From Chloroflexota bacterium (GTDB taxonomy: Bacteria; Chloroflexota; Dormibacteria; Dormibacterales; Dormibacteraceae): 45,807 nucleotides of DNA. Of this stretch, positions 26,662 to 42,418 are shown piece by piece (the stretch's first letter is position 1; each line of letters starts with the position of its first letter). The notes beneath the pieces were generated by a model that was not told the origin of the DNA, made no database searches, and worked only from the letters and a program-made list of their open reading frames with translations. A program made the position numbers and the translations under genes. The stretch spans positions 1-45,807 of the forward strand of contig VBGM01000149.1 in the NCBI GenBank assembly GCA_005880855.1. The letters are read 5' to 3'.

Positions 26662-28287
26662 CTACATCCCTTTGGGTGTGGCGCGCCAGCCGGTGGCCGC
26701 GCTGAGCGTCTCCGACAGCTCGTCGAGGTGGATGGGCTTGCTCATGTAGTCGTCGAACCCGGCCCTGAGGCATCTGTCCTTGTCACCGGGCGCCGCCATC
26801 GCCGTGAGCGCGACCAGGCGTGGTCGGGTGCCGCGAGGCCAACGGCGGACGATGGCCTCTGCCGCCTGCAGCCCGTCCATCTCGGGCATCAGCACGTCCA
26901 TCAGCACGGCGTCGTACTGCTCCCTTGCGACGGCGGCAACCGCCTCGCGGCCGTTCGAGACCACGTCGACGTGATGGCCGAGCTTGCCGACCAGGCGACG
27001 CAGGGTGTTCTGGTTGAGCGGGTTGTCCTCGGCGACAAGCACCTTCAACACACCCGGAGCAACTTCGGGATGCGGCTCGGGCTCGACCTCCTGATGCGTC
27101 CCGACCTGGGCCATGACGTCATGCAGCTTGTGCGGCGGCACCGGCTTGGTGAGCGTTGCCTGCACGACCCCGCTGTCGGCGGCGCCGGCCTCCTCAGGAC
27201 CGGGCGTTGCCGCGGTCACGAGAACGATGGGAAGCTGCGCCGGCGATCGCTGCGACCTCAATGCGATCGAAAGCGCCAGGCCGTCGATGGCCGGCCGCCG
27301 GTGCTCGACGATCGCCAGGTCGAAAGGCTGTCCCTCCTGCACGAGGGCCAGGGCGTCGGCCACATTGGCGACAGTCGCGGGCGCTCCCCACAGCTCGGCC
27401 TGGAGTGCGAGCACACGCCGCTCGGTGGCGTCGGCCGCGATGACCAGGACGCGCATGCCTTCCAGCGTTCGCTGCGTGACGGCGACCGGCGTATGCATGA
27501 CCTGGGTCAGGATCGTGAACTCGAACGTCGTGCCCGCGTCCGGCCCTTTCTCGACACCGCCCTGCTCGACACGGAGCTCGCCATCCATCATCTCCACCAG
27601 CCGGCGGCAGATCGAGAGGCTGACGATGGCGAGCGCATCGCCCGGCACGTCCAGCTGTGCTTCCCCGCCGATGTCATCGCCGAGGCCGCTGCGCAGGATC
27701 CTGGCCGCAATCCCACGGCCCGTGTCGCGAACCCGGAAGCGAAGCTCCATGAGATCGCCGCGTGCCTGGCAGCTCAACTGGACATCGATGCCGCCACGCT
27801 CAGTACGCTCGATGCCACCATGAAGCAGCGCGAGCATCACTTGCTCGATGCGGCGAGAGTCGCCGATGATGACGCTGGGGACGTCGGGCTCGGCGCGGAA
27901 CGAAAGCTCCAGACTCTTGCCACCCGCCTCTTCGACTACCGTGCCGAGGCATGACTCAACGCTGGCGCGCACGTCGAATGGATGAAGGGCAAGCTCGAAG
28001 TCGCCGCTCTGAATGACCGCCGCGTCGAGGATATCGTCGAGAAGCCTTGCCACGCGATTGGCTCCCGTCTCCACGATTGCGGAGAGTTCCCGCTGCTCGC
28101 TGGTCGTCGCGGTCGCGGAAAGCATGCTCGCGGCGCTCACGATGGCGTTGAGCTCGTTGCGCAGCTGATGGCCGAAGTCCAGCAGCAGGTCTTCTCGTGC
28201 CACCGCCGACAGAAGCGGTTCTCCGTTCGGCATAGGGATCGCCTGCGCAGGCGGGTTGGTGTCTTCTTCCTGGTCCTTCAGATCCAT
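26662..28287 (-). CDS. Hybrid sensor kinase-like protein with degenerate CA and first REC domains
   Basis: A 541-residue soluble protein next to cpaF. Residues 36-100 form a HisKA dimerisation domain with His40 in FGHQLRNELNAI. Residues 105-262 form the ATPase domain: its N-box reads MLALLHGGIERT, with Gly157 for the essential Asn; the G1 box DTGRG (188-192) is kept; the G2 glycines are lost (GDALAIVSLS). REC1 (279-395) has Glu328 at the phospho-Asp position and only one acidic residue in the metal pocket. REC2 (414-533) is intact: Asp464 and Lys517. It starts 1 nt after cpaF's stop. Phosphotransfer from another kinase is more likely than autophosphorylation. Confidence 0.85.
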   Translation of the reverse strand: MDLKDQEEDTNPPAQAIPMPNGEPLLSAVAREDLLLDFGHQLRNELNAIVSAASMLSATATTSEQRELSAIVETGANRVARLLDDILDAAVIQSGDFELALHPFDVRASVESCLGTVVEEAGGKSLELSFRAEPDVPSVIIGDSRRIEQVMLALLHGGIERTERGGIDVQLSCQARGDLMELRFRVRDTGRGIAARILRSGLGDDIGGEAQLDVPGDALAIVSLSICRRLVEMMDGELRVEQGGVEKGPDAGTTFEFTILTQVMHTPVAVTQRTLEGMRVLVIAADATERRVLALQAELWGAPATVANVADALALVQEGQPFDLAIVEHRRPAIDGLALSIALRSQRSPAQLPIVLVTAATPGPEEAGAADSGVVQATLTKPVPPHKLHDVMAQVGTHQEVEPEPHPEVAPGVLKVLVAEDNPLNQNTLRRLVGKLGHHVDVVSNGREAVAAVAREQYDAVLMDVLMPEMDGLQAAEAIVRRWPRGTRPRLVALTAMAAPGDKDRCLRAGFDDYMSKPIHLDELSETLSAATGWRATPKGM

Positions 28288-28288
28288 G

Positions 28289-29773
28289 TCAGTAGAGCCG
28301 CTCCGCCGGAGGCTGCGCCACCGGCACGAACATCTCCTCGGCGAGCTCGACCCCGTTGGAGCGGAAGTGATGCAGCTGCGCGGAGCGAGCGCCTGTTGCG
28401 GTGTGATACCCGACCGCGCGCCCGTCGGGGTTGACCCCCACCTGGCGGTACGCAAACAGCTCCTGGAGAGCGATCTCGCCGTCGACAAGGCCGAGCACCT
28501 CGGCGACGCTGACCACCTTGCGGGTGCCGCCACGCAGGCGCTCCGTCTGCACGATGACGTTGACAGCGGACGCAATCTGGCTGCGAATCGCCCTCGACGG
28601 CAGCTCGGTGCCGGCCAGCAGCACAAGCGTCTCGAGCCGGTTCACCGCATCGCGCGGGTTGTTCGCGTGCAGCGTGCTCATCGATCCATCGTGCCCGGTG
28701 TTCATCGCCTGGAGCATGTCGAGCGCCTCAGGACCGCGGCACTCGCCGACCACGATCCGGTCCGGCCTCATGCGTAGGCAGTTGCGCACTAGATCCCGGA
28801 TCGAGATCGCGCCTCTACCCTCCACGTTCTGGGGTTTTGACTCGAGGCTGATCACATGGACCTGCCGGAGGCGCAGCTCCGCCGCATCCTCGCAGGTGAC
28901 GATTCGTTCGTTGGCGGGGATGAAGCTCGACAGCACGTTGAGGAGAGTGGTCTTGCCCGACCCGGTGCCTCCGGACACGATGATGTTCAAGCGCGTTTTC
29001 ACCGCCGCGTCGAGGTAAGACATGATCGCGGCGGTGGCGCCGCCGGTGTTGACGATCTGGTCCGGGCTGAGCACCTCTCGCCCGAACTTGCGGATAGTAA
29101 GGCACGGACCGTAGATGGCCACCGGTGGGATGACTACGTTGACGCGCGAGCCGTCCTTGAGTCGCGCGTCACACATCGGCTCGGATTCGTCGACGCGGCG
29201 GCCGATCGTGGAAACAATGCGGTCGATCACGCGACGAAGGCTCCGCTCGTCCTCGAACGCCAGCGTGGTCAGCTCGATCTTTCCGCGCCGCTCGACGAAT
29301 ATCTGCTCCGGCCGGTTCACCATCACCTCGCTGATGTCAGGGTCCCGAAGCAGCGCTTCAAGCGGTCCCAGGCCGATGACCTCGTCGAACAGGATCTCGA
29401 CCAGCCTCTCCTTGTCCGACGCTGTGACGAGCGCAGCTGGAGGCTTGGACCGAAAGTGCTCTTCGGTCAGCTGAAGCAGGAGACGGCGGATGCCGGCTCT
29501 GTTGTTGATATCGATCTGGGCGGTGTGATGCGAAAGAAGCTGCGCGTGGATCTCGGCTTTGGCGGCCGCCAGCGCCGGACTCAGCGATGCCACCTGGTCT
29601 GAAAGTTCGATCGGGTTGGTGAGCACTTCCTCCGGGGGTGTGGCCGGCAGGGGCGCGACAACCGGGGCCGGCGCGACGACCTCAGCCACTGATACCGGAG
29701 CCGGGGCGGGCGCCACAGTGCCCGTCATCGGCGACTGCTGGTAGCGGCGGTCGAACCGCTCAGAAAGCTTCAT
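28289..29773 (-). CDS. cpaF: Tad pilus motor ATPase CpaF/TadA
   Basis: Secretion-type hexameric ATPase that powers Flp pilus assembly. The 494-residue protein has a Pro/Ala-rich N-terminus, the CpaF N-terminal domain (FDEVIGLGPLEALLRDPDISEVMVN is at about residues 129-153), Walker A GGTGSGKT (268-275), Walker B RIVVGECRGPE and the histidine-box SMSTLHANNPRDA. It overlaps the upstream HEAT-repeat gene by 4 nt. TadB and TadC, its membrane partners, are on the plus-strand arm. Confidence 0.94.
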   Translation of the reverse strand: MKLSERFDRRYQQSPMTGTVAPAPAPVSVAEVVAPAPVVAPLPATPPEEVLTNPIELSDQVASLSPALAAAKAEIHAQLLSHHTAQIDINNRAGIRRLLLQLTEEHFRSKPPAALVTASDKERLVEILFDEVIGLGPLEALLRDPDISEVMVNRPEQIFVERRGKIELTTLAFEDERSLRRVIDRIVSTIGRRVDESEPMCDARLKDGSRVNVVIPPVAIYGPCLTIRKFGREVLSPDQIVNTGGATAAIMSYLDAAVKTRLNIIVSGGTGSGKTTLLNVLSSFIPANERIVTCEDAAELRLRQVHVISLESKPQNVEGRGAISIRDLVRNCLRMRPDRIVVGECRGPEALDMLQAMNTGHDGSMSTLHANNPRDAVNRLETLVLLAGTELPSRAIRSQIASAVNVIVQTERLRGGTRKVVSVAEVLGLVDGEIALQELFAYRQVGVNPDGRAVGYHTATGARSAQLHHFRSNGVELAEEMFVPVAQPPAERLY

Positions 29774-30615
29774 GCGGACCGCCGCCTCATGGACGCGCTG
29801 ATGCGCATACGGGCGCGCATGGCGGCTTTGCGGATCGTCTCGTCCGGATCCGTGCCGAGCATTCGCATCGCATCGGCCCCGGCGGGGTCACCGATCATCG
29901 ACACTGCCCGGCAGGCGGCCACTCTTATCTGGGTTTCGCATTGGCGGTCCTGCGCCATTTTGACGAGAAGGGGCGTCCTCAGCGCATCTCCACGCAATCC
30001 GCATGCCATGAGGACCGTTACCGTGGCCTGGGGGCTGCTCGTTTCCCTCAAGAGCGCCTCGAGATCGATGTCCGAAGCCGCCCGGGACAGCTCCTTGGCC
30101 ACCCGGTGTTGCGGCAGGCGGTCGGCGCGGGACATGAGGGCCTCGACCACCCGCCTACCCCCCGCCTGGCCGAGCGCCCGGACCGCGACCTCGCGGACGG
30201 CCGGGTTCTCGTCGTCCAGCAGATCCGCCAGCCATGGCACAGCGTCCGGCATGCGGAGCGCCCCGCAGATCCGTGCGCCGGCGATCCGGACGCGCGGGTC
30301 GGGGTCGCCCAGGGAATTGATGAGGTCGGCCTCCAGGCCGCTCCGGCGGAAGGTGTTGACGACCTTGAGCTGGGCCGCGAGTCCGGTGCCGGCGCGCTCC
30401 AGGCCTGCCGAGATCACCAGTGCGACTGATTCGGCGTCAGCCAGCATCTCTGCGGCTTTCACGTCGAGTGTTACGCGGGGGTCACCGCCAATCGCGGTGG
30501 CCAGCACGCGGTCGATCTTTGACGCCAAGCGTGTACGCGGACCGGCGGTGCGAAGGGCGCTCGTCCGCCGGGAAAATCGTCTCGAATCGCCGTCAGGCGG
30601 GGGTTTGCTGCTCAA
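29770..30615 (-). CDS. HEAT-repeat protein of the Tad locus
   Basis: A 281-residue helical-repeat protein. Repeats such as DLINSLGDPDPRVRIAGARI, WLADLLDDENPAVREVAVRA and CETQIRVAACRAVSMIGDP follow the HEAT/PBS-lyase pattern from about residue 90 onward. Such repeats usually make protein-protein contacts. It is the first gene of the cpaF arm and overlaps cpaF by 4 nt, so a scaffold role for the motor is plausible but inferred. The start is uncertain: TTG at 30615 lacks a Shine-Dalgarno sequence, and an internal TTG near codon 30 is possible. Confidence 0.72.
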   Translation of the reverse strand: MSSKPPPDGDSRRFSRRTSALRTAGPRTRLASKIDRVLATAIGGDPRVTLDVKAAEMLADAESVALVISAGLERAGTGLAAQLKVVNTFRRSGLEADLINSLGDPDPRVRIAGARICGALRMPDAVPWLADLLDDENPAVREVAVRALGQAGGRRVVEALMSRADRLPQHRVAKELSRAASDIDLEALLRETSSPQATVTVLMACGLRGDALRTPLLVKMAQDRQCETQIRVAACRAVSMIGDPAGADAMRMLGTDPDETIRKAAMRARMRISASMRRRSA

Positions 30616-30703: not shown

Positions 30704-30724
30704 TCGGGGGAGGAAGGAGCACCG

Positions 30725-31960
30725 GTGGCTGCAAGTGGATCGCATTCGGCCGAGCCTCCGTCGGTCCTGCAACTACGTGTGCGCATCCTCGAAATGTCGT
30801 CGGTTTTCGCTGAGCTCCCCGATGGGGCGCTCCGCGCCCTCGCCCGGCGGATGCAGCCGGTCAAGCTCTCCCCCAACGACACGCTCCGGCTCGGCGGTCG
30901 GGGCGGCGACGTCGTGATCTTCCTGGCCTCGGGGGTCGCCGAGCAGTCAATCACCGACGCCGCGGGCAAGCTCCTGCTGACCCGGCGCCCGGCCCCCGGC
31001 GACCTCCTCATACTCCCCGCCCCCCGGACCGGTGACCGCTATGTGACCAGCATCCGCGGACTGTCGGCGTCCACTCTGCTCACGCTCGACCGCGATGGGC
31101 TGCTGGAAGGCCTCGGGGCCGACGTCGAAAAGGTTGCGATCGCCCTCGACAAGCTATGGGAGCAGCAGGTGGCGGCTGCGGCTGCCACTGAGGCGCAGGC
31201 CGCCTCGCGCTCGTCGGCGCCGATCGTGGCTTTCTTCTCCGCCAAGGGGGGTTCGGGCGTCAGCACGCTGGCCGTGAACACGGCGGCGGCGCTGGCGGCG
31301 AAGTATCCGAAGCAGGTGCTGCTGATCGACATCTCAGCACCGTTCGGCCACGCGGCGCTGTTCGCCGACCTCGTCGCCACCGGTTCCATCGCTGGGGCGT
31401 CCAAGGCCGCGCCCGCCGACTTCGAGAAGAACCTGCGCGGCGCGATCGTGTACCACAAGACCGGCCTGGGGGTCCTTCCGGGGACTCTTCGTCCCGAGCA
31501 GGTTGACCTGATGAATGCCGAGCTGACCGGCCGCGCACTTGATGTCGCTGCTGGGTGGCACCGCATCGTGCTCGCCGACCTCGGCACCTCTCTCTCAGAA
31601 GCTGCCCTGGTCGTCATCGAGCGCGCTGAACGTTTGGTCGTGGTCGTGCCGCCTGAGATGGCGGCGATGGCGGACGCGAGACGGTCCCTTGCGATCTTTC
31701 GCGACATCATGAACGTGCCCGACAACCGCCTCGAGCTCGTCCTCAACAACCGGGTCCCCGGCGCGCCTTTGGATCGAAACGGCGTCGAAGCAACCCTCGG
31801 CCACAAGATGTCGCTCACGGTCAACTTCGACGACACCCGCCCCGAGGACGCGGCGCTGGCCGGCAGCCTGGTGCTCCAGCGCGACCCGTCTTCGCAGGTC
31901 TCCCGCGGCTCGAACGAGCTTGCTCGCTTGATCGTCGGGAAGTTGAAGCTCGATGGTTAA
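30725..31960 (+). CDS. cpaE: CpaE/TadZ-like ATPase with N-terminal CRP-like sensor domain
   Basis: A 411-residue protein. Residues 27-130 resemble a cyclic-nucleotide-binding fold (FAELPDGALRALARRM, LASGVAEQSI, PGDLLILP, RGLSASTLLTLDRDGLL). Residues 165-411 form a ParA/MinD-type ATPase with the CpaE-style P-loop KGGSGVST (174-181), in which the usual GK lysine is Val; CpaE/TadZ proteins localise the Tad machine at the pole. The start is the GTG following GGAGGAAGGAG. It overlaps tadE by 8 nt. The family usually has a receiver-like N-terminal domain; the CRP-like one here is unusual. Confidence 0.85.
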   Translation: MAASGSHSAEPPSVLQLRVRILEMSSVFAELPDGALRALARRMQPVKLSPNDTLRLGGRGGDVVIFLASGVAEQSITDAAGKLLLTRRPAPGDLLILPAPRTGDRYVTSIRGLSASTLLTLDRDGLLEGLGADVEKVAIALDKLWEQQVAAAAATEAQAASRSSAPIVAFFSAKGGSGVSTLAVNTAAALAAKYPKQVLLIDISAPFGHAALFADLVATGSIAGASKAAPADFEKNLRGAIVYHKTGLGVLPGTLRPEQVDLMNAELTGRALDVAAGWHRIVLADLGTSLSEAALVVIERAERLVVVVPPEMAAMADARRSLAIFRDIMNVPDNRLELVLNNRVPGAPLDRNGVEATLGHKMSLTVNFDDTRPEDAALAGSLVLQRDPSSQVSRGSNELARLIVGKLKLDG

Positions 31961-32447
31961 GAAGAGGGGCACCGCCCATGCCCAGGCGCTCGTCGAGTTC
32001 GCGATCGCCCTCCCGATCCTGATCCTCCTGGTGGCGGGCGTGCTCGAGCTGGGACGTGGTTACTCGTATGCCGTGGCCACCTCGGACGCCGCCCGAGACG
32101 GCGCCCGCTATGTGTCGGGCAAGACGGCGACCACCAACGGCCCTGGCCTCGCCGCGATGTGCAACCTGGTCACGGCCGACCTCGCCGCCGTTTCCAGCAA
32201 CATCAGCTGCCCTACCCAAGTCGGTCATGCGCCCCCGTTCGTGAGCGGCGTCGATTACACCGCGCCTGTGGGCGGTCAGATGGTGGTCGCCGTCTACTGC
32301 GGCGCCAGCGCGAACTGCACCGGCGGCGTCACCGCGCTGTATCAGTCGGAGGTCGATGTCTATGTTTACTACGGGTTCAACGACCTGAACCTGTTGGGCG
32401 GCCTCGTCACGATCTCGGGCTCGAGCAAAACGACTACGTCCTGGTGA
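31953..32447 (+). CDS. TadE-like pseudopilin 1
   Basis: A 164-residue protein with the TadE signature AQALVEFAIALPILILLVAGVLELGRGY at the N-terminus: a short basic lead (MVKKRGTAH), Glu after the LV, and one membrane helix. The rest is a small extracytoplasmic domain with three cysteines. TadE/TadF/TadG are minor pilins or pseudopilins of the Tad system, often processed by a prepilin peptidase. It overlaps cpaE by 8 nt. Confidence 0.85.
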   Translation: MVKKRGTAHAQALVEFAIALPILILLVAGVLELGRGYSYAVATSDAARDGARYVSGKTATTNGPGLAAMCNLVTADLAAVSSNISCPTQVGHAPPFVSGVDYTAPVGGQMVVAVYCGASANCTGGVTALYQSEVDVYVYYGFNDLNLLGGLVTISGSSKTTTSW

Positions 32448-32454
32448 GACTTCG

Positions 32455-33135
32455 GTGCGTGCAAGGTTGAGCGCCCCTCACCGCGGCGCTTCGCGGGGGG
32501 GAGCTCCCCGCATGGTGGGGTGCCCAGGGAGCACAGGTCAAGCTCTAGTGGAGTTCGCTCTCATCGCCCCGGTGCTGCTGCTCATCATCGGAGCGACCGT
32601 CGACATGGGTCGCGGCCTTCTCCTCTATTCGCTCCTCGAGGGCGCTTCACGGGACACCGCCCGCCAAGCGGCACTCGTCTATTACAGCGGGTCCAACACG
32701 CTGGCCCCGGACTGCACCGCGCTCGCGACGCCCTGTTCGCTGAACCCTTTGATAAACAGCGCTCACCTGCTGGATCCCCTGGGCGCGCAGGTCGTTTATC
32801 AGGACTCCACCGCGATCAGCGCGGCGCCGTCCTATGGCACCTTCACCGCGAACGCCGACCCAACGCAGCCAGGCACCATCGCCCTGGCCGGCGGGACCAC
32901 CAACAACACCGTCTATGTGTTCATCTACGAGATCGATTCGGCGGCCGGTAATCCCAATCCTCGCTGGAGCTGCCCGACTTGCGGCGCCGTCAATGGCGCG
33001 TACGTGCGTACGTCGGGGCATCAACGCGTGGTGGTCGACCTCAAGCTGAAGTGGCAGCCGGTGCTGGCGCGCCTGCTCGGCCTGCCGTCGACGATCACGT
33101 TCGATTCGCAATCCGTGCTGCGCATGGAGTTTTGA
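32455..33135 (+). CDS. TadE-like pseudopilin 2
   Basis: A 226-residue protein with the same N-terminal signature (GQALVEFALIAPVLLLIIGA) after a longer 28-residue basic leader, one membrane helix, and an extracytoplasmic domain with four cysteines (including a CPTC pair). The start is a GTG 7 nt after the first tadE stop; an internal ATG at codon 20 would give a leader closer to normal length and cannot be excluded. Its TGA shares the A with tadG's ATG. Confidence 0.85.
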   Translation: MRARLSAPHRGASRGGAPRMVGCPGSTGQALVEFALIAPVLLLIIGATVDMGRGLLLYSLLEGASRDTARQAALVYYSGSNTLAPDCTALATPCSLNPLINSAHLLDPLGAQVVYQDSTAISAAPSYGTFTANADPTQPGTIALAGGTTNNTVYVFIYEIDSAAGNPNPRWSCPTCGAVNGAYVRTSGHQRVVVDLKLKWQPVLARLLGLPSTITFDSQSVLRMEF

Positions 33136-35465
33136 TGGGCGCCGGCAGCTCACGCCAGTCCGGGCAGGTGATGGTGCTCGTGGCCGTCGCCCTGCTCGCA
33201 CTCATCGGCTCCGCGGCGCTGATCCTGCTCGCCGGCTCGGTCGAATGGCAGAAAAACCAGGTCCAGGAGCTGGCCGATGCGACCGCCCTCGACTCTGCCT
33301 TGAAGGTCGCAATCGGGTGCGACGCCGCCAAAGCGAACGCCGTCATCGCAGAAGCCGACAACTTTCTTGCCTCGCGGCGAACCCGGACCGGTGCTTTGAG
33401 CGTGACCCCCGGCACCTGCGCCACCCCTTACAAGGGGACCGACACCTTCGCCGGAGGTTTGAGCGCTACATACAACTACCCCTATCGCGCTCACCAGCAG
33501 GAGGTCGAGGTGATCCTCACCTTGAGCCTGCCGATCTCGTTCGGCGGCGAGCTGGGGACGAGCAACACCAACGTAACGCGCCGCGCTGTGGCGCAACAGC
33601 TTGCGGGTTCGGTGCCGGCCATCTCGGCCACGACCCTCACATGCACAGGTGGGCAGATCAACGTCGCCGGCAGCATCGCGGCCCAGAACCTGATCACGAG
33701 AAGCGGCAGCTGCGCGTTCTACGCGCACACGCGGTACGACGCCGCTTCCGGAACCTATTCGGACCTTGGCAACGTGCAGGTGTACGCGGACGGCCAGGGC
33801 TGGGTCGGCGGCGGGGGGTCATGCGCGGCGGCCTCGAACTCCGGCTCGAGCAACGCCATCTGCGCGGATGGCGCGGAGCTCTCGGGTCACGTGACGCCGG
33901 TATGCGGCACGAACGCCACCAGCCAGTTCCTTTCGGCCGGTGACGCCGCCATCAACGCGAACCCCTGCGCCGCGAGCGTGGCTCCCCTACCTGTACCTCC
34001 GGTGTCCGCCCTCCTCCCGCCCGAGCCCAACACCGACGCCGGCGCGATCGCAACGCTGCAGGGCACCGGCGGCGCGGCGTGCTCCGCCGCCGGTGGGTAC
34101 CCGAACATCGTGGTTGGCGGCGTGACTGTAGGCACCGGGCTTGCCCCGGCCCCAGTCAAGGACGCCAGCGGCTACTACCACTTCAAACCGAGCTGCTACG
34201 GCTATCTCAACGTCGCCGGCCTCAGCGGAGGCATCTCGAACGTCCAGGCGGGCCCGATCGTCACCGCCACGCACTTCCTCACCCCAACACTTCCGGCGGC
34301 GAGCACCGCTGGCACGCTCCTGGTAGCGGCCGTCCGGTCTGACGCCACCCTGACGAAATTCACCGCTCCGGCAGGCTGGGTCCAAGCGGGGGTCGAGAGC
34401 CAATCGGGGACCAGCCCGCGGACCGAGATCTGGTACTACCCGAACAACCCCGGCGGCATATCCGCCGCCACGTTCACCATCAACCCGGCCAGCATCGACT
34501 CGACCGCGCAGATAACCGAGTGGCGCAACGTGGCGACGGTTGCCCCGCTGGACAAGACCGGCAACACCGCGATCGGTGTGGTGCAGAGCACCGCGACAAT
34601 TTCGACCTCGGCCGCGAACGCGGCAGCCAACGACCTCGTGATCACCGACGTAGGAGTCCTCGAGGCAATTCCTGGACAGGTGATCTCGCAGGGACTCGGA
34701 TGGAACAGTCTGGCCAACGACCCGACCGATGGCTTCACCTCCGAGTACAGGCTCGACCTCCCGGCCGCGCCCGCGCCCAGCGAGACGCTGAACAGCACCG
34801 TGACGACCACGTGGGCGCTGGTGATGGCATCGTTCAAGGCGGCCTCGTCATCCTCTGGCGCGGTTTTTGATCCGGGTTTCTACTACTTCAACGGGTCCGG
34901 GTTCGCCGGCGGAGGAGGGGTCTGTCTGGGAGGGGGCACGCTGCTGGCCCGCGACGTGACGATGGAGTTCGTCAACCAGGCCGGGTTCTCGTCGGGCACC
35001 TGCGCTGCTGGTGGCGGAGCGAGCTGCGCGGGGTCCTGCCAGTTCGGGTCGGCCCCCTGCTCTCTCTCGCCCTGCCCGCCCAACGCTGGGGCCGACTCGC
35101 CCAACAACCTGACCTGGCTCGCCGCCCCCTGCTCGGCCGCGCCGGCGGCAGCCGATGCCGCGAGCTGCCTCGGCGGCGCCTCGTGGTGTACTGCCGGGGA
35201 CCGGGCGTGCTCGAACCTTCTGATCTGGGCGCTCCCCTCCAACACGGGGACAATCGCGATCACAGGCAGCGCCGCGCACGCCTGGCTGCTGGGGTCGGTC
35301 TACTGGCCGGGAGCGTGCACGGACAGCGTCAATGGAACCAGCATGATCGCGGGTTCGGTGTCATGCGGCACCCTGACGATGTCCGCTGGCGCGGGCGCCG
35401 CGACAGCCGTTGGGAGCGACGCCGGAATCAGCACCGCCCTGGTCGAAGCCGTTCTAGTCGAGTGA
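33135..35465 (+). CDS. Large TadG-like Tad surface protein with inserted beta-rich domain
   Basis: A 776-residue protein. Residues 10-32 form the TadG-type helix (GQVMVLVAVALLALIGSAAL), followed by the WQKNQVQELADATALDSA segment found in TadG. Residues about 366-568 form a separate beta-rich domain (GTLLVAAVRSD, APAGWV, EIWYY, ITEWRNV, ASFKAA). After that come a Gly/Cys-rich C-terminal region with many paired cysteines (about 590-720) and a polymer-like SG/SA-rich tail. TadG usually has a vWA domain; none is seen. An adhesin or pilus-tip role is inferred. Confidence 0.78.
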   Translation: MGAGSSRQSGQVMVLVAVALLALIGSAALILLAGSVEWQKNQVQELADATALDSALKVAIGCDAAKANAVIAEADNFLASRRTRTGALSVTPGTCATPYKGTDTFAGGLSATYNYPYRAHQQEVEVILTLSLPISFGGELGTSNTNVTRRAVAQQLAGSVPAISATTLTCTGGQINVAGSIAAQNLITRSGSCAFYAHTRYDAASGTYSDLGNVQVYADGQGWVGGGGSCAAASNSGSSNAICADGAELSGHVTPVCGTNATSQFLSAGDAAINANPCAASVAPLPVPPVSALLPPEPNTDAGAIATLQGTGGAACSAAGGYPNIVVGGVTVGTGLAPAPVKDASGYYHFKPSCYGYLNVAGLSGGISNVQAGPIVTATHFLTPTLPAASTAGTLLVAAVRSDATLTKFTAPAGWVQAGVESQSGTSPRTEIWYYPNNPGGISAATFTINPASIDSTAQITEWRNVATVAPLDKTGNTAIGVVQSTATISTSAANAAANDLVITDVGVLEAIPGQVISQGLGWNSLANDPTDGFTSEYRLDLPAAPAPSETLNSTVTTTWALVMASFKAASSSSGAVFDPGFYYFNGSGFAGGGGVCLGGGTLLARDVTMEFVNQAGFSSGTCAAGGGASCAGSCQFGSAPCSLSPCPPNAGADSPNNLTWLAAPCSAAPAAADAASCLGGASWCTAGDRACSNLLIWALPSNTGTIAITGSAAHAWLLGSVYWPGACTDSVNGTSMIAGSVSCGTLTMSAGAGAATAVGSDAGISTALVEAVLVE

Positions 35466-35715: not shown

Positions 35716-36504
35716 ATGGCCGCTGAGATCGGCCGCCCGCGGCGCGGCAGGACCTACATCGTGGTCGGCACCGTGCTTGCCGTGCTCGCTTTCGCGACAG
35801 CTGCCGGGGTCGCCAGCCTACCCCTCCTCTTCTCGAACAACCCCACCGGCACCAAGGTCGTCGTGGCCAAGACCTCAATCAACGCACGCACGAAGATCCA
35901 GGCCTCGGACCTGACGATGAGCGTCGTCAACCCCGTCCCGCCACAGGCGTTCACAGACATCAACTCTGTCGCCGGCAAGGGCGCACGCGTGGACATCCCC
36001 GCCGGCGCCCCGGTCACAGCCAACCTCATCGCCCAGTCGCCTGACCTGCTGAGCAGCAGCGACGTAACCTACCTCCCCATCCCATCAGGATTCGTCGCGG
36101 TCACGATCCCCACCTCGGAACAGGTCGGTGTGGGTGGGTACGTTCAGCTGGGGGACCGCATCGCGGTGCTCGCGACGGTCAACACCAACATCTTCGGGAT
36201 CAACCCCGGCTCGCCCGTGGTCAGAACAGTGTTCCGAAACCTGGATGTGATCAGGGTGGGCCCGGCCAGCACGTCGAGCGGAGCGTCTCAGATCACCAGC
36301 AGCCTCACTGTGCTCATGACCGCATGCGACTCCGAGTACATGTTCTGGTTCCTCAACAACGCGGTCCTCAAGTACACCCTGGAGTCGTTCCGGGACTACG
36401 AACAAACGCCGAACCAGCCCGACCCCTCCTGCCCAAGCCTCACGGCAGCGGGTGGCGTCGGACCGCGCGAGGTAGACAAGAAATGGAAGTTCACGACGCC
36501 GTAG
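35716..36504 (+). CDS. cpaB: Tad pilus assembly protein CpaB/RcpC (SAF domain)
   Basis: A 262-residue protein with a cytosolic basic lead, one membrane helix (about residues 13-38) and an SAF domain: VVVAKTSINARTKIQASDLT, then GKGARVDIPAGAPVTANLI. This is followed by the RcpC-like beta region SGFVAVTIPTSEQVGVGGYVQ. CpaB/RcpC is the periplasmic component that links the inner machine to the cell surface. The start has AGAGG at 6 nt. TadB follows after 25 nt. Confidence 0.87.
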   Translation: MAAEIGRPRRGRTYIVVGTVLAVLAFATAAGVASLPLLFSNNPTGTKVVVAKTSINARTKIQASDLTMSVVNPVPPQAFTDINSVAGKGARVDIPAGAPVTANLIAQSPDLLSSSDVTYLPIPSGFVAVTIPTSEQVGVGGYVQLGDRIAVLATVNTNIFGINPGSPVVRTVFRNLDVIRVGPASTSSGASQITSSLTVLMTACDSEYMFWFLNNAVLKYTLESFRDYEQTPNQPDPSCPSLTAAGGVGPREVDKKWKFTTP

Positions 36505-36529: not shown

Positions 36530-37480
36530 GTGGGCTTGACGATCGTCCTGATCTCCATTGCGGCCGCCATCGGGGTCGTGCTGGTCGTGTACGGGATCGT
36601 CGCCCGCGACCGCGCGATCACCGAGGCCGAGACCGGCGGCCCTTCCGCTCGCGTCACTTACCGCACTCTGGCGGACGTTCGTGAGCAGCTGCGGCGGCGG
36701 TTCGAGCCCACCGGCGCCCCCGTCTGGATCGCCGCGCAAAGCCCCAATGCGCTGGCCGCCGACCTGGCGAGCGCCGACCTTCAGCTGCGCCCTTATGAGT
36801 TCCGCATCCTGCAGCTGGGCTCGGCGCTCGTCCTGGCCCTGGTGGGCTACACGCGTTTCGGCGTCAACCTTGCGGTGCCCGTCCTCGCCGTCGTCGGCTA
36901 CGTGCTGCCAGTCATCTACCTTCGCAACCGCAGGGGCCACCGGCTCCGGATGTTCGAGGCCGGCCTCCCGCGCGCGATGGAGCTCATCGCCAACTCGATG
37001 AAGGCCGGCCAGTCGGTGGCGCAGTCCCTCGGGGCCGTGACGGAGAATGCGGGCCCGCCGGTCTCGGAGGAGTTTCGGCTGGCGCAGCGCGAGGTCGAGC
37101 TCGGCGCCTCCGTGGAGAGTGCGCTCAGCAACATGGTGAAGCGCATGGGCAGCTCCGACCTCCGGCTGATGGTGATGGTGATCACGATCCAGCACGCGGT
37201 CGGCGGCGACCTGCCCGCCATTCTCACCACGCTCGCCGACACGATGCGGCAGCGCGCGGAGATGAGGGAGGAGATCCTGGCCGCGACAGCTCAGTCCAGA
37301 GCCTCGAGCCTGATCATCACCCTGCTGCCGGTCGTGGCGGGCGCGTTCCTTTTCTTCGTCGTGCCCGATTACTTCCGCCCGATGTTCGTCAATCCGCTTG
37401 GATGGGTGATCCTGGCACTGGCAGCCGGCCTGCTGGTGCTCGGCAACATCATCATCAGGCGCATCACGGCGATCACATGA
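36530..37480 (+). CDS. tadB: Tad inner-membrane platform protein TadB
   Basis: GspF-type (T2SSF) platform protein that couples to CpaF. The 316-residue protein has N-terminal membrane helices (about 3-25 and 95-135), the cytosolic T2SSF domain with FEAGLPRAMELIANSMKAGQSVAQSL, and two C-terminal helices (about 255-312). The start is GTG. Its TGA overlaps the tadC ATG (ATGA). Confidence 0.92.
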   Translation: MGLTIVLISIAAAIGVVLVVYGIVARDRAITEAETGGPSARVTYRTLADVREQLRRRFEPTGAPVWIAAQSPNALAADLASADLQLRPYEFRILQLGSALVLALVGYTRFGVNLAVPVLAVVGYVLPVIYLRNRRGHRLRMFEAGLPRAMELIANSMKAGQSVAQSLGAVTENAGPPVSEEFRLAQREVELGASVESALSNMVKRMGSSDLRLMVMVITIQHAVGGDLPAILTTLADTMRQRAEMREEILAATAQSRASSLIITLLPVVAGAFLFFVVPDYFRPMFVNPLGWVILALAAGLLVLGNIIIRRITAIT

Positions 37481-38409
37481 ACGCGCTGCCGGTCTTCGTT
37501 GGCATCGCCGCCGCGATCGGCGCGTGGCTCATCGTGTCCGGGGCCAGGAGCTCCCAAGCCGGCGATGCGTCCACGCTCGCCCGGCAGCGTCTCGCCAGGC
37601 AGGAGCTCGGCCTCGGCCAGAGCGCGATCGCGCTGGAGCTCGAGAAGCCGCTGGGCGAACGGCTGACCGCCCCATTGCGCCGCTGGCTGATCCGGCAGAT
37701 CACGCGCCTGACGCCGGCCGCCCAGGCCGCGAACTTTCAGCACAACCTCGATTTCGCCGGCAACCCTTTCGGGCTCGACCCCGCCGGCGTGCAGACCCTC
37801 CGCATTGCTTCCGCCGCCGCCCTGGGCACCATCGGCACTGCCCTGGGTGTCTTGATCGGTTCGCCATTCGCCCTCGTGATTTTTCTTTTGGTCGGTGTCG
37901 CCGTTGGTTTCTACCTGCCGGTGCTATGGCTCGACCAGCTCGTGCGGGAGCGGCGCGCCGAGATCGAAGCGGCGCTTCCCAACGCCCTCGACGTGATCGC
38001 GATCAGCATGGAAGCGGGCCTGGGACTGGACCGTGCCGCTGAGCAGCTCGTCCGCCACCAGGAAGGTCCGCTCACGCTGCTGGTAGCGCGCGCCCTACGG
38101 GAAATAGAGCTGGGACGGCCACGTGCCGACGCGCTGGAGGAGATGGCCGATGCCACCGGCATCGAGGATTTCACCGGGCTCATCCGCTCCATCCTCCATG
38201 CCGAGCGCACCGGCGTTCCCATCGCGCGCACCATCGCCGCGCATGCCGCTCAGATGCGGGTGAAACGGCGCTTGAAGATTCGCGTCGAGGCCGCGCGCGC
38301 CTCGTTGAAGATTCTCCTCCCGACGGTCGGCTGCGTTTTTCCGACGTTGTGGCTGATCATCCTCGGGCCGGCCCTGCTGGTGGTCCTTACCATCACCTCA
38401 AAGCACTAG
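37477..38409 (+). CDS. tadC: Tad inner-membrane platform protein TadC
   Basis: Second T2SSF-family platform protein, paralogous to TadB. The 310-residue protein has helices at about 3-21, 106-150 and 280-305, and the signature IEAALPNALDVIAISMEAGLGLDRA in the T2SSF domain. The ATG at 37477 fits the family start; longer readings run into tadB. The stop TAG is part of a CTAG also used as the stop of the convergent hydrolase gene. Confidence 0.92.
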   Translation: MNALPVFVGIAAAIGAWLIVSGARSSQAGDASTLARQRLARQELGLGQSAIALELEKPLGERLTAPLRRWLIRQITRLTPAAQAANFQHNLDFAGNPFGLDPAGVQTLRIASAAALGTIGTALGVLIGSPFALVIFLLVGVAVGFYLPVLWLDQLVRERRAEIEAALPNALDVIAISMEAGLGLDRAAEQLVRHQEGPLTLLVARALREIELGRPRADALEEMADATGIEDFTGLIRSILHAERTGVPIARTIAAHAAQMRVKRRLKIRVEAARASLKILLPTVGCVFPTLWLIILGPALLVVLTITSKH

Positions 38410-39032: not shown

Positions 39033-40033
39033 AGCTTCTTGCGCATGACGACGTTGCGCTCGAGCTCGCGATATGGCTCGAAGCCCGCGCGCAGGTACAT
39101 CTCCATCGGCCCGCGGTAGTTGCCCTGCGGAGTATCGTCGCCCCTGCGCGGGGGGTAGGCCTCGACCTGTCGAACCCCTCGCTCGCGGAGCCGGTCGATC
39201 GCGGCATCCAGGAGCTGCGAAGCAACGCCATGTCCTCGATACGGTGAAGCGATCACGAAGCAAGCGACTGACCCGACTCCCTCCTGGGATGCGGCATCGA
39301 GGTTGAAGCGGCGCATGACGCCGGCGAGATGGGTCGTCTCGCCGTAGTTGCACCAGCCCACGGGCTCGCCGCCGGCCATCGCCAGCAACGCTGTGACCTT
39401 GCGCTGCTCGATGCCCTCTGACATGTCGCGGCGGTTTTCCGCAGCGGTGCGCACCCCGGCCTCTTCTTCGCTCTCCGCTAGATGAGTCTCCATGCAGTAG
39501 CAGTCCTGCCAGGCAGGGAAGTCGCGGAAGGCGATGTCGTCGAAGAAATGCTGGTATGTCGATAGGCGGTCTGGTGTCACCTCGACGATCTCCACGTCGC
39601 CGATCTCCGGCAGGCGCTCGAGTTCAGCGCGCGCCACCGGGTCTGTGGCCAGACGGAGACCCTCGAGCAGAGCGAAACCCTGGGACTCCATCAGGGGATG
39701 GACGGGATCTTCCGCCACCCACGACATCTGGACCCGCGAGCCGGCCTCGATCCGAGACACCTCCCAGGTCATCTCGTGCGGCGGCGCGGCGGCGAAAGAA
39801 GGTGCGAACAGGAACCTCGTGCGCAGCGCGAGCCGGCGAGGCGAATCCATGTCGATGACGTCGGATTCCTCGGCGAGGTCGCCGCGCGAGCCCAGCCAGC
39901 GGATGTGCCCGCCGGGCGTGAAATCCCCCTCGGGCAAAAGATTGAAGTACCAGTGCCGCGGCCCAGGAGCGACGAGCTCACCCCACACCACCTCCGGCGC
40001 AGCCGCGATATCGATCGAGTGAGAACCCTTCAC
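39029..40033 (-). CDS. SRPBCC (AHSA1-like) and GNAT acetyltransferase fusion
   Basis: A 334-residue protein. Residues 1-130 have the SRPBCC ligand-binding pattern (SIDIAAAPEVVWGELV, ITERATION-like hydrophobic strands, HEMTWEVSRIE). Residues about 150-334 form a GNAT domain with the acetyl-CoA motif CFVIASPYRGHGVASQLLDAA and MEMYLRAGFEPYRELER. This lets a binding fold sit in front of an N-acetyltransferase. It overlaps rel and the hydrolase gene by 4 nt each, so the three are an operon. The substrate is unknown. Confidence 0.82.
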   Translation of the reverse strand: MKGSHSIDIAAAPEVVWGELVAPGPRHWYFNLLPEGDFTPGGHIRWLGSRGDLAEESDVIDMDSPRRLALRTRFLFAPSFAAAPPHEMTWEVSRIEAGSRVQMSWVAEDPVHPLMESQGFALLEGLRLATDPVARAELERLPEIGDVEIVEVTPDRLSTYQHFFDDIAFRDFPAWQDCYCMETHLAESEEEAGVRTAAENRRDMSEGIEQRKVTALLAMAGGEPVGWCNYGETTHLAGVMRRFNLDAASQEGVGSVACFVIASPYRGHGVASQLLDAAIDRLRERGVRQVEAYPPRRGDDTPQGNYRGPMEMYLRAGFEPYRELERNVVMRKKL

Positions 40034-42159
40034 GACGCTTCGCGCGCGACAGTGTGCACGTCCTTCACCCCCTCCAGCTTCTCCATCAGGCGCGACAACT
40101 GTGCCAGCGAGTCGATCTCGACCGTCGCCGATACCACCGCCGTCTTGTCGTCGTACACGTGAACCTCGAGCGCCGACATGTTGACTCGGTTCTCAGCCAC
40201 AACCGTGGCGATGTCCCGCAGCAGCCCCTGGCGGTCCCATGCTTCGATCTTGATCGCCACCGGGTAGATGTGCGTGGCATCGGAGTCCCAGTCGACCGGC
40301 ACCACGCGTGCCTGGTCCTGGGCGTTGATGGCGTTGACGCAGTCCGCACGATGCACCGTCACACCCCGGCCCCGAGTCGTGTAGCCGACGATGGCGTCAC
40401 CGGGCACCGGCTGACAGCAGGGCGCGATCTTGGTCAGGATTCCCTTCTCGCCGCGAACGAGCACTCGCGGAGTTGGCTGCACGTTGGGAATCAGCGGGAT
40501 GGCGCGCAGGTCTCCGCCGGCGCCCTCGGTGCTCAACGACATCCGCATGACCACCGAGTGCGGCGACAGGTCGCCATAACCGATGGCGGCCAGGAAATCG
40601 TCGACGGCGTTGTAGCGGTGGATGCCGGCGATCTCCTGCAACTTGGGTTCGGCGAGGTCGACGAGGCTCACCCGGTGCATGCGATGGAGCTCCTTGTCGA
40701 GGAGGTCGCGACCCTTGGCTACGTTCTCCTCGCGGCGCTGGCTCTTGAACCACTTGCGGATTCGCTCTTTGGCCGACGCGCTCTTGACGAAGTTGAGCCA
40801 GTCGCGACTGGGTCCGTGCGGTCCCTTCGACGTCAGGATCTCCACGATCTCGCCGTTCTGCAATTCGTAGTCGAGCGGGACCATGCGGCCGTTGACCTTG
40901 GCGCCGATGCAGCGGTGACCGACCTCGGTGTGGATGCGGTAGGCGAAGTCGACCGGGGTCGAGTCCGAGGGCAGGTTGAGCACATCGCCCTTGGGCGTGA
41001 ACACATAGACCTCGTCCTGGAACAGGTCGACCTTGACGGTGTCGAGGAACGATTCGGAGTCGCCGATCTCGTTCTGCCACTCGAGCAGGCTTCGGAGCCA
41101 TGACAGCTTCTGGTCGAAGCTGGCGTCCTTGCCCCCTTCCTTATAAGTCCAGTGTGCGGCGACGCCGAACTCGGCCACTCGATGCATCTCGTGAGTGCGG
41201 ATCTGGATCTCGATCGGCTCACCGGTGTGCGTGATCACCGTCGTGTGCAACGACTGGTAGCCGTTGGACTTCGGCATTGCGATGTAATCCTTGAAGCGGC
41301 CCGGCACGGGCTTCCAGAGGGAATGGACGACGCCGAGCACGCCGTAGCAATCGCGCACCGAGTCCACCTGGACGCGGATGGCAGACAGGTCGTAGATCTC
41401 GGAGAAGTCCTTCTGCTCGCGGGTCATCTTCTGCCATACCGAGTAGATGTGCTTGGGGCGGCCGGTGATCTCGGCCTTGATCCCGACGTTATCGAGCTCA
41501 CGAGCGAGGATCTCGCGCAGGTCCGAGACCAGGGTCTCGCGCTCGTGGCGCTTGCGCGCGATGCGCTTGACGACGTCTTCGTATGCCTCCGGCTCCAGGT
41601 TGCGGAAGGCCAGGTCCTCGAGCTCCCACTTGAGCTGCCCGATGCCGAGGCGATGCGCCAGCGGGGCGTATATGTCGAGGGTCTCGCGGGAGATCTTGCG
41701 GCGCTTGATCTCGGGCAAGGGATCGAGCGTGCGCATGTTGTGGAGCCGGTCGGCCAGCTTGATGAGGACGACCCGGAGGTCTTCCGCCATCGCCACCATC
41801 ATCTTGCGAATGTTCTCGGCCTGCTGCTGCTGGTCGGTGCGTATTGAGATGCGACCCAGCTTGGTCACGCCCTCGACCAGGCGGGCGACCTCCGGCCCGA
41901 ATTCAGCCTCGACCTCGTCGGCTGTGAGCGCGGTGTCCTCCACTGTGTCGTGAAGTAGGGCGGCGGCGAGCGTCTGCGCGTCGAGCTGCAGGTCCGCGAG
42001 GATCGCGGCCACTTCGAGCGGGTGGTTGACATAGTCCTCGCCCGACAGCCGGCGCTGGCCCCGGTGAGCCACCGCGGCGCGGTCGTACGCCTTGCGGACC
42101 AGCTCACGGTCCTTGGGCTCGAGATGGTCGGCGATCCGGAGCAGCTCGGAAACGGTCAC
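40030..42159 (-). CDS. rel: Bifunctional (p)ppGpp synthetase/hydrolase Rel
   Basis: Makes and degrades (p)ppGpp in the stringent response. The 709-residue protein has an HD hydrolase domain (HPLEVA; HDTVED at 70-75), a synthetase domain with the RFKD motif (288-291, the RXKD form of bifunctional enzymes) and SNGYQSLHTTV. A TGS domain (about 383-442), a helical region, a Cys-Cys motif APCCQPVPGD and a C-terminal ACT domain follow. The GTG at 42159 is chosen because the longer frame runs into the repeat copy B. Both activities look intact. Confidence 0.95.
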   Translation of the reverse strand: MTVSELLRIADHLEPKDRELVRKAYDRAAVAHRGQRRLSGEDYVNHPLEVAAILADLQLDAQTLAAALLHDTVEDTALTADEVEAEFGPEVARLVEGVTKLGRISIRTDQQQQAENIRKMMVAMAEDLRVVLIKLADRLHNMRTLDPLPEIKRRKISRETLDIYAPLAHRLGIGQLKWELEDLAFRNLEPEAYEDVVKRIARKRHERETLVSDLREILARELDNVGIKAEITGRPKHIYSVWQKMTREQKDFSEIYDLSAIRVQVDSVRDCYGVLGVVHSLWKPVPGRFKDYIAMPKSNGYQSLHTTVITHTGEPIEIQIRTHEMHRVAEFGVAAHWTYKEGGKDASFDQKLSWLRSLLEWQNEIGDSESFLDTVKVDLFQDEVYVFTPKGDVLNLPSDSTPVDFAYRIHTEVGHRCIGAKVNGRMVPLDYELQNGEIVEILTSKGPHGPSRDWLNFVKSASAKERIRKWFKSQRREENVAKGRDLLDKELHRMHRVSLVDLAEPKLQEIAGIHRYNAVDDFLAAIGYGDLSPHSVVMRMSLSTEGAGGDLRAIPLIPNVQPTPRVLVRGEKGILTKIAPCCQPVPGDAIVGYTTRGRGVTVHRADCVNAINAQDQARVVPVDWDSDATHIYPVAIKIEAWDRQGLLRDIATVVAENRVNMSALEVHVYDDKTAVVSATVEIDSLAQLSRLMEKLEGVKDVHTVAREAS

Positions 42160-42161
42160 TG

Positions 42162-42418
42162 CAGTGTCCCGCCCCGGGGATCCGCCGCAGATTCGCGGCA
42201 TCGGCGGCCGGAGCCAAGGAGGGGGTGGCGCCAGGAGGAGCGCACACCTGTGGGGTCCCCGCGACGAAGTCGCGGGAGGATGCACGGCGCCGGGCCCCCC
42301 GACGCCGGCTTCAGCGCCTCCCTCGGGGTCCCCGCGGAATCGCAAGATTCCGTGGGGTGAGCAGGCGCCCGGCCGCCTAGGCCGCGAAGATGCAAGGAGC
42401 CTCGGGGACGGGACACTG
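42162..42418 (+). repeat. Interspersed repeat copy B with terminal inverted repeats
   Basis: The ends CAGTGTCCCG and CGGGACACTG are perfect inverted repeats, and the match continues imperfectly inward. Inside are the same blocks as copy A, plus an extra hairpin at 42258-42276 (CCCGCGAC, GAA, GTCGCGGG) and the GCAA-loop hairpin at 42330-42357. Like copy A it lies exactly 2 nt from a minus-strand start codon (rel). It fills most of the 297-nt gap between rel and the divergent HD-GYP gene. No ORF or transposase is inside. Confidence 0.87.

Follow-up and report, generated by a model that had tools for sequence, protein, structure and literature searches.

What does a domain of the cyclic nucleotide-binding (CNB) type do at the N-terminus of a Tad pilus ATPase, where a receiver-like domain is usually found? 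The question is raised by one gene in the window, that is, the whole 45,807-nucleotide stretch of DNA that was analysed, which comes from a metagenome-assembled genome. The original prediction read this gene as a CRP-like sensor domain fused to the CpaE/TadZ ATPase and proposed that pilus placement or activity might answer to a small-molecule signal. The gene, its parts and its neighbours are as follows.

26662–28287, minus strand: hybrid histidine kinase with two receiver domains, end to end with cpaF, start inferred
28289–29773, minus strand: CpaF/TadA-type motor ATPase (T2SSE), from its domain match
29770–30615, minus strand: HEAT-repeat protein, divergent from the fusion gene and a conserved partner of CNB-CpaE Tad loci
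30711–30719, plus strand: ribosome-binding site AGGAAGGAG, strong, five bases 5' of the fusion-gene GTG
30725–31960, plus strand: CNB-CpaE fusion gene of group I, 411 amino acids (open reading frame, Pfam, AF2 model)
30773–31198, plus strand: CNB-type beta-roll with flanking helices, residues 17–158 (PF00027, leave-out profile, AF2 model)
30998–31060, plus strand: replaced phosphate-binding cassette, residues 92–112, GDLLILPAPRTGDRYVTSIRG, as against DDFFGEMALISEETRTASVRA in group II paralogs (alignment, pN/pS)
31217–31939, plus strand: ParA/MinD/TadZ-type ATPase domain, residues 165–405 (Pfam, PDB, Foldseek)
31238–31267, plus strand: deviant Walker A SAKGGSGVST, residues 172–181 (alignment)
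31953–32447, plus strand: TadE-like minor pilin, overlapping the fusion-gene stop
32455–33135, plus strand: second TadE-like protein, from its domain match
33132–35465, plus strand: TadG-like protein without a Pfam match, named from its position and hydrophobic N-terminus and conserved in the locus
35716–36504, plus strand: CpaB/RcpC, from its domain match
36530–37480, plus strand: TadB-type platform protein (T2SSF), from its domain match
37474–38409, plus strand: TadC-type platform protein (T2SSF), from its domain match

The fusion gene runs from a GTG at 30725 to a TAA at 31958–31960, and the coordinates first assigned to it are right. It lies in a Tad pilus locus, a setting that is conserved in its orthologs, and heads a run encoding two TadE proteins, the TadG-like protein, CpaB, TadB and TadC, while a divergent run encodes the HEAT-repeat protein, CpaF and the hybrid histidine kinase. 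The stop codon is overlapped by the ATG (31953) of the next Tad gene, and a scan for promoters and terminators 5' of the fusion gene found none. Past the Tad operon, an ordinary RelA/SpoT-type (p)ppGpp synthetase/hydrolase is encoded at 40030–42345 on the minus strand.

The C-terminal part of the protein is a MinD/ParA-type P-loop ATPase, for which the Pfam match begins at residue 167. By sequence, the best PDB match was 3ea0 (3.9e-22), which was also the top match by fold, and the fold search of the window model additionally matched 3fkq, the TadZ of Eubacterium rectale. The NCBIfam model CpaE_hom_Actino matched the window protein at 2.9e-13, under that model's cut-off. Within the deviant Walker A, the signature Lys174 is present in 52/52 sequences and the second Lys is absent. 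The protein accordingly shares with E. rectale TadZ and Caulobacter CpaE a ParA/MinD-type ATPase with a deviant Walker A, an N-terminal domain joined to it, and a gene whose Tad operon also encodes CpaF, CpaB, TadB, TadC and TadE. It probably works as a TadZ/CpaE, albeit as an atypical member because the receiver-like N-terminus is absent.

It is in this N-terminus that the protein departs from known TadZ/CpaE proteins, carrying a CNB-type beta-roll and a long C-helix rather than an (atypical) receiver. Taken alone, the window domain matched PF00027 with E = 1.7e-4 over residues 46–128, but at 21.9 bits it scored below the curated gathering cut-off of 27.5, and the CNB call was therefore checked in four further ways. 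The profile was matched by 17 of 19 orthologous domains taken singly (best 1.1e-6) and by 23/24 members of the wider family (best 1.3e-25). Against a profile that excluded the window's own group and was built from paralogs only, the window domain scored 71.4 bits, whereas the best score among 2000 shuffled copies was 8.7 bits. An ortholog-only profile searched against PDB matched the CNB-type domains of KCNH1 and CNG channels, making the KCNH/EAG CNB homology domain the closest solved relative of the group I domain by sequence, at a very great distance (best 2.7e-5). The CNB homology domains of KCNH1/EAG channels are not known to bind cyclic nucleotides.

In the AF2 model of the window protein (pLDDT 84.6, pTM 0.84), helices are followed by a beta-roll at residues 44–122, a long C-helix at 123–158 and then the ATPase fold, and the alternating beta-alpha topology of a receiver is absent. 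Pfam profile searches likewise gave no PF00072 receiver match in the window protein or the orthologous domains. When the whole window model was searched with Foldseek, the top 50 matches were all P-loop ATPases; the model of a group II paralog matched the CNB domains of PKG, PKA and CRP, with E-values of about 1e-13 to 1e-11. The domain thus resembles those of PKA, PKG and CRP in its beta-roll with flanking helices and in a significant profile similarity, which is strongest via the paralogs. Taken together, the profile matches identify the window N-terminus as a CNB homolog, predicted to form a beta-roll with a C-terminal helix, and a receiver fold is out on the PF00027 matches, the lack of any PF00072 match and the all-beta roll of the model. 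With the leave-out profile, the model and the Tad operon setting all in agreement, the predicted fusion to a CpaE/TadZ ATPase, with a CNB roll replacing the usual receiver-like domain, is borne out. Neither of the two outcomes named with the prediction as contradicting it, a receiver-like model or the lack of any CNB match, was obtained.

The fusion is also widespread among close relatives. Group I orthologs were found at full length, with 64–96% identity, in 25 genomes of the host's family including its own, and this family also holds two other full-length CNB-CpaE paralog kinds with 31–37% identity to the window protein. Group I occurs in one type of Tad locus and most of group III in another; the group II gene is an orphan without Tad neighbours, near groEL in the three loci read. 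The group II paralog of the window's own genome (L050:7311-8585, plus strand; G000:C105) has a canonical cassette and shows at least 90% identity among many of the family's genera, a level that suggests a housekeeping role. When 110 genomes of the class were searched, the matches listed included full-length fusions only in the host's Dormibacterota family; in the other three families the listed matches span just the ATPase part and its edge. A survey of Tad loci in related genomes, which had been proposed with the prediction, thus places the fusion across one family of Dormibacterota, which are uncultured bacteria of soil, the Tad loci read in other families having a receiver-CpaE. In the other families of the class, these receiver-CpaE proteins reach 99–104 bits to PF00072. 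The five members of the host's family without CNB-CpaE also gave no CpaF match at 1e-60. The family has a third Tad locus, which retains a receiver-CpaE in some genera (G009, G011, G014 and G023; L149, L150, L151 and L158); in L147, L148 and L152–L157, the window's genome among these, it has no cpaE and cpaB is followed directly by cpaF.

Beyond the class, a search of 400 genomes of the phylum found CNB-MinD fusions, among the matches listed, in G314, G237, G272, G279 and G188, representing four families. These are mostly tandem pairs that do not adjoin Tad genes, and the fusion of G188 has a long linker. Cassettes are mostly canonical in the tandem pairs L135, L136, L138 and L139 from other families of the phylum. 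Such orphan CNB-MinD proteins (group II and the tandem pairs) share the two-domain architecture of the window protein and its side of the ATPase tree, but differ from it in their mostly canonical cassette and their location outside Tad loci. In the open-access literature searched, no description of a CNB-CpaE fusion was found, and nothing was found on Tad pili in the phylum. The CNB-CpaE protein is a real, conserved and unusual variant of a known Tad component.

The origin of this variant was approached by building a maximum-likelihood tree from 62 ATPase domains, with the root placed on the receiver group by our own choice. A branch with support of 99/91 splits all 15 receiver-CpaE proteins from all CNB-bearing proteins, and group I forms a single clade (100/100) on a long stem. 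Given this split, Tad loci apparently recruited a whole CNB-MinD protein, which appears to be the simplest reading of the sequences, and a simple domain swap onto an old Tad CpaE is disfavoured by the tree. The ATPase-only proteins L051, L082 and L083 (group IV) fall next to a CNB-bearing relative in this tree, and from this nesting the CNB domain was apparently lost at least once. These three ATPase-only relatives lie 3' of histidine-kinase-like genes, outside Tad loci. Besides its separate ATPase clade, the window protein differs from known TadZ/CpaE proteins in having a HEAT-repeat gene alongside. This gene adjoins all group I loci, 9/10 group III Tad loci and 0/12 receiver-CpaE Tad loci, in a count where the same genome, present in two collections, accounts for several of the group I loci, and its product (29770–30615) is a candidate new Tad component.

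Whether the recruited domain could still read a ligand depends on its phosphate-binding cassette, of which the original prediction had found the GExAL...RxA form not clearly present. The alignment agrees: group I has Ile at position 96 (28/29 orthologs), Leu at position 97 (28/29) and Tyr at position 106 (27/29), in place of the canonical Gly, Glu and Arg of the paralogs, and this replacement together with the fused MinD-type ATPase sets the window protein apart from PKA, PKG and CRP. Pro98 and Thr108 occur in 29/29, the latter in place of the canonical Ala108, and Arg101 and Arg105 are kept in 28/29 and 27/29, respectively. Group II has the canonical Gly96, Glu97, Arg106 and Ala108 (window numbering) in 11/11 sequences; in group III, Gly is found in 12/12 and Glu in 7/12, and the Arg position is most often Gln. 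A short cassette helix (98–101) in the group II model is absent from that of group I, where the region is among the roll's weaker parts (mean pLDDT about 70 for residues 91–110).

Within group I, mean entropy is 0.59 in the replaced cassette versus 0.75 in residues 44–91, and pN/pS is 0.31 for both the cassette and the whole CNB domain, indicating purifying selection. Since the replacement is itself conserved, the cassette looks re-purposed rather than decayed, and random decay of the domain is out on the same conservation and pN/pS. Direct cAMP sensing by the window copy is disfavoured by the replacement of the cassette across the orthologs; to judge from the residues, the ligand site was rebuilt and cAMP binding probably lost. 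What stands of the earlier proposal is therefore a CNB fold joined to a TadZ/CpaE-type ATPase that is encoded within a Tad locus; small-molecule sensing by the window copy is not supported, the cassette Gly, Glu and Arg being replaced in 27–28 of 29 orthologs and the KCNH1/EAG domains being the nearest solved relatives in sequence. Cyclic-nucleotide sensing by the intact-cassette group II paralog, outside Tad loci, is plausible.

The reading that we prefer, with a probability of about 0.62, is that the window protein is the TadZ/CpaE of a Tad (type IVc) pilus, that the receiver-type CpaE gave way to an entire CNB-MinD protein belonging to a separate lineage within the phylum, and that the roll serves as an assembly interface from which canonical cAMP/cGMP gating has been lost. 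The CpaF hexamer of Caulobacter is encircled by CpaE dimers, which have been proposed to contact one another through their REC domains (PMC13170226). In addition, TadZ, with its atypical Walker A, still binds ATP but has low ATPase activity (PMC6668835). It is on these observations, together with the retention of Lys174, that the CNB roll and helix are proposed as an assembly interface replacing the receiver. The MinD-type part would bind ATP and presumably dimerise next to the CpaF hexamer at the membrane, with the CNB-type roll and long C-helix occupying the receiver domain's structural place. From there, the roll and helix may contact other CpaE dimers or the HEAT-repeat partner, and the motor ring would thereby be built or positioned. 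In the Tad-locus copy, the change of the cassette to a conserved non-canonical loop would most likely mean that cAMP/cGMP gating was given up for a protein-protein interface. By analogy with Caulobacter, the protein thus most likely serves as a motor-ring assembly module without cAMP gating, in which the ring contacts of the roll are what we infer. This explanation is based on the fold class from prediction and profiles, membership of the locus, conservation, the cassette replacement and the separate ATPase lineage.

A tentative alternative, which we consider unlikely, is that the domain still works as a sensor through an altered site, with the loop ILPAxRTxDRYxT binding another ligand, for example a cyclic dinucleotide or a phosphorylated molecule, through Arg101 and Arg105 and thereby gating CpaE. 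Conservation of the loop matches that of the remaining domain, purifying selection acts on it, and its two conserved arginines could bind phosphate, but it has lost the Gly, Glu and Arg by which known CNB domains hold the phosphate. The host genome has nine class III cyclase (PF00211) and eight GGDEF matches, which suggest from sequence that it makes cyclic nucleotides, and the cyclase fusion described below occurs in the same genera.

In the window's own genome, a 1636-amino-acid frame (L145:3534-8441, minus strand; G000:C132), also found in L146, joins a complete T2SSE/CpaF-type domain to a class III nucleotidyl cyclase and then AAA_16. By eye, we take the cyclase to have kept both metal-binding Asp, the Lys and Asp that confer adenylyl specificity, and the catalytic Asn and Arg, and its catalytic residues are thus apparently intact. 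With a motor-linker-cyclase query, the linker was 77–100% identical in more than 20 genomes of the host's family; among the matches listed, the cyclase part was matched only in this family (genera g1, g2, g3, g6, g8, g9 and g11) and was not found in other families of the class. These genera are those of the group I CNB-CpaE, and the other Tad-bearing genera, g5, g7, g10 and g13, have neither fusion among the matches listed. The co-occurring genera may form one clade, so the pattern may reflect one or two events and does not amount to independent support. A cyclic-nucleotide circuit built into the Tad apparatus can be envisaged, in which the CpaF motor carries an adenylyl-cyclase-like domain, the receiver-CpaE was abandoned, and the CNB-CpaE kinds, one with an intact cassette and others altered, read the signal or specialised away from it, thus placing or gating pili; as a whole, we regard this scheme as doubtful.

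Another reading, which we consider improbable, gives the CNB-type domain no regulatory role and sees it as a structural relic or a passive arm for dimerisation, the MinD part alone mattering. The ATPase-only group IV proteins beside a CNB-bearing relative indicate that the domain can be lost, but they sit outside Tad loci, the domain is kept in all intact group I and group III Tad-locus copies read, and the low pN/pS given above shows its conservation in group I. Finally, an ordinary CpaE whose receiver diverged past recognition, with an accidental CNB likeness, would fit the sub-threshold PF00027 score of the window copy alone, but is scarcely credible, as the PF00027 matches, the paralog profile, the PDB matches of the ortholog profile and the all-beta AF2 topology all indicate a CNB roll, the receiver-CpaE proteins of the class reach about 93–104 bits to PF00072, and the window ATPase domain comes from a different lineage.

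CpaE/TadZ is a ubiquitous component of Tad systems, and its occurrence with an unrelated N-terminal fold would provide a natural test of what that domain is for. The CNB-CpaE system would also allow the direct wiring of Tad motors to second messengers to be tested.
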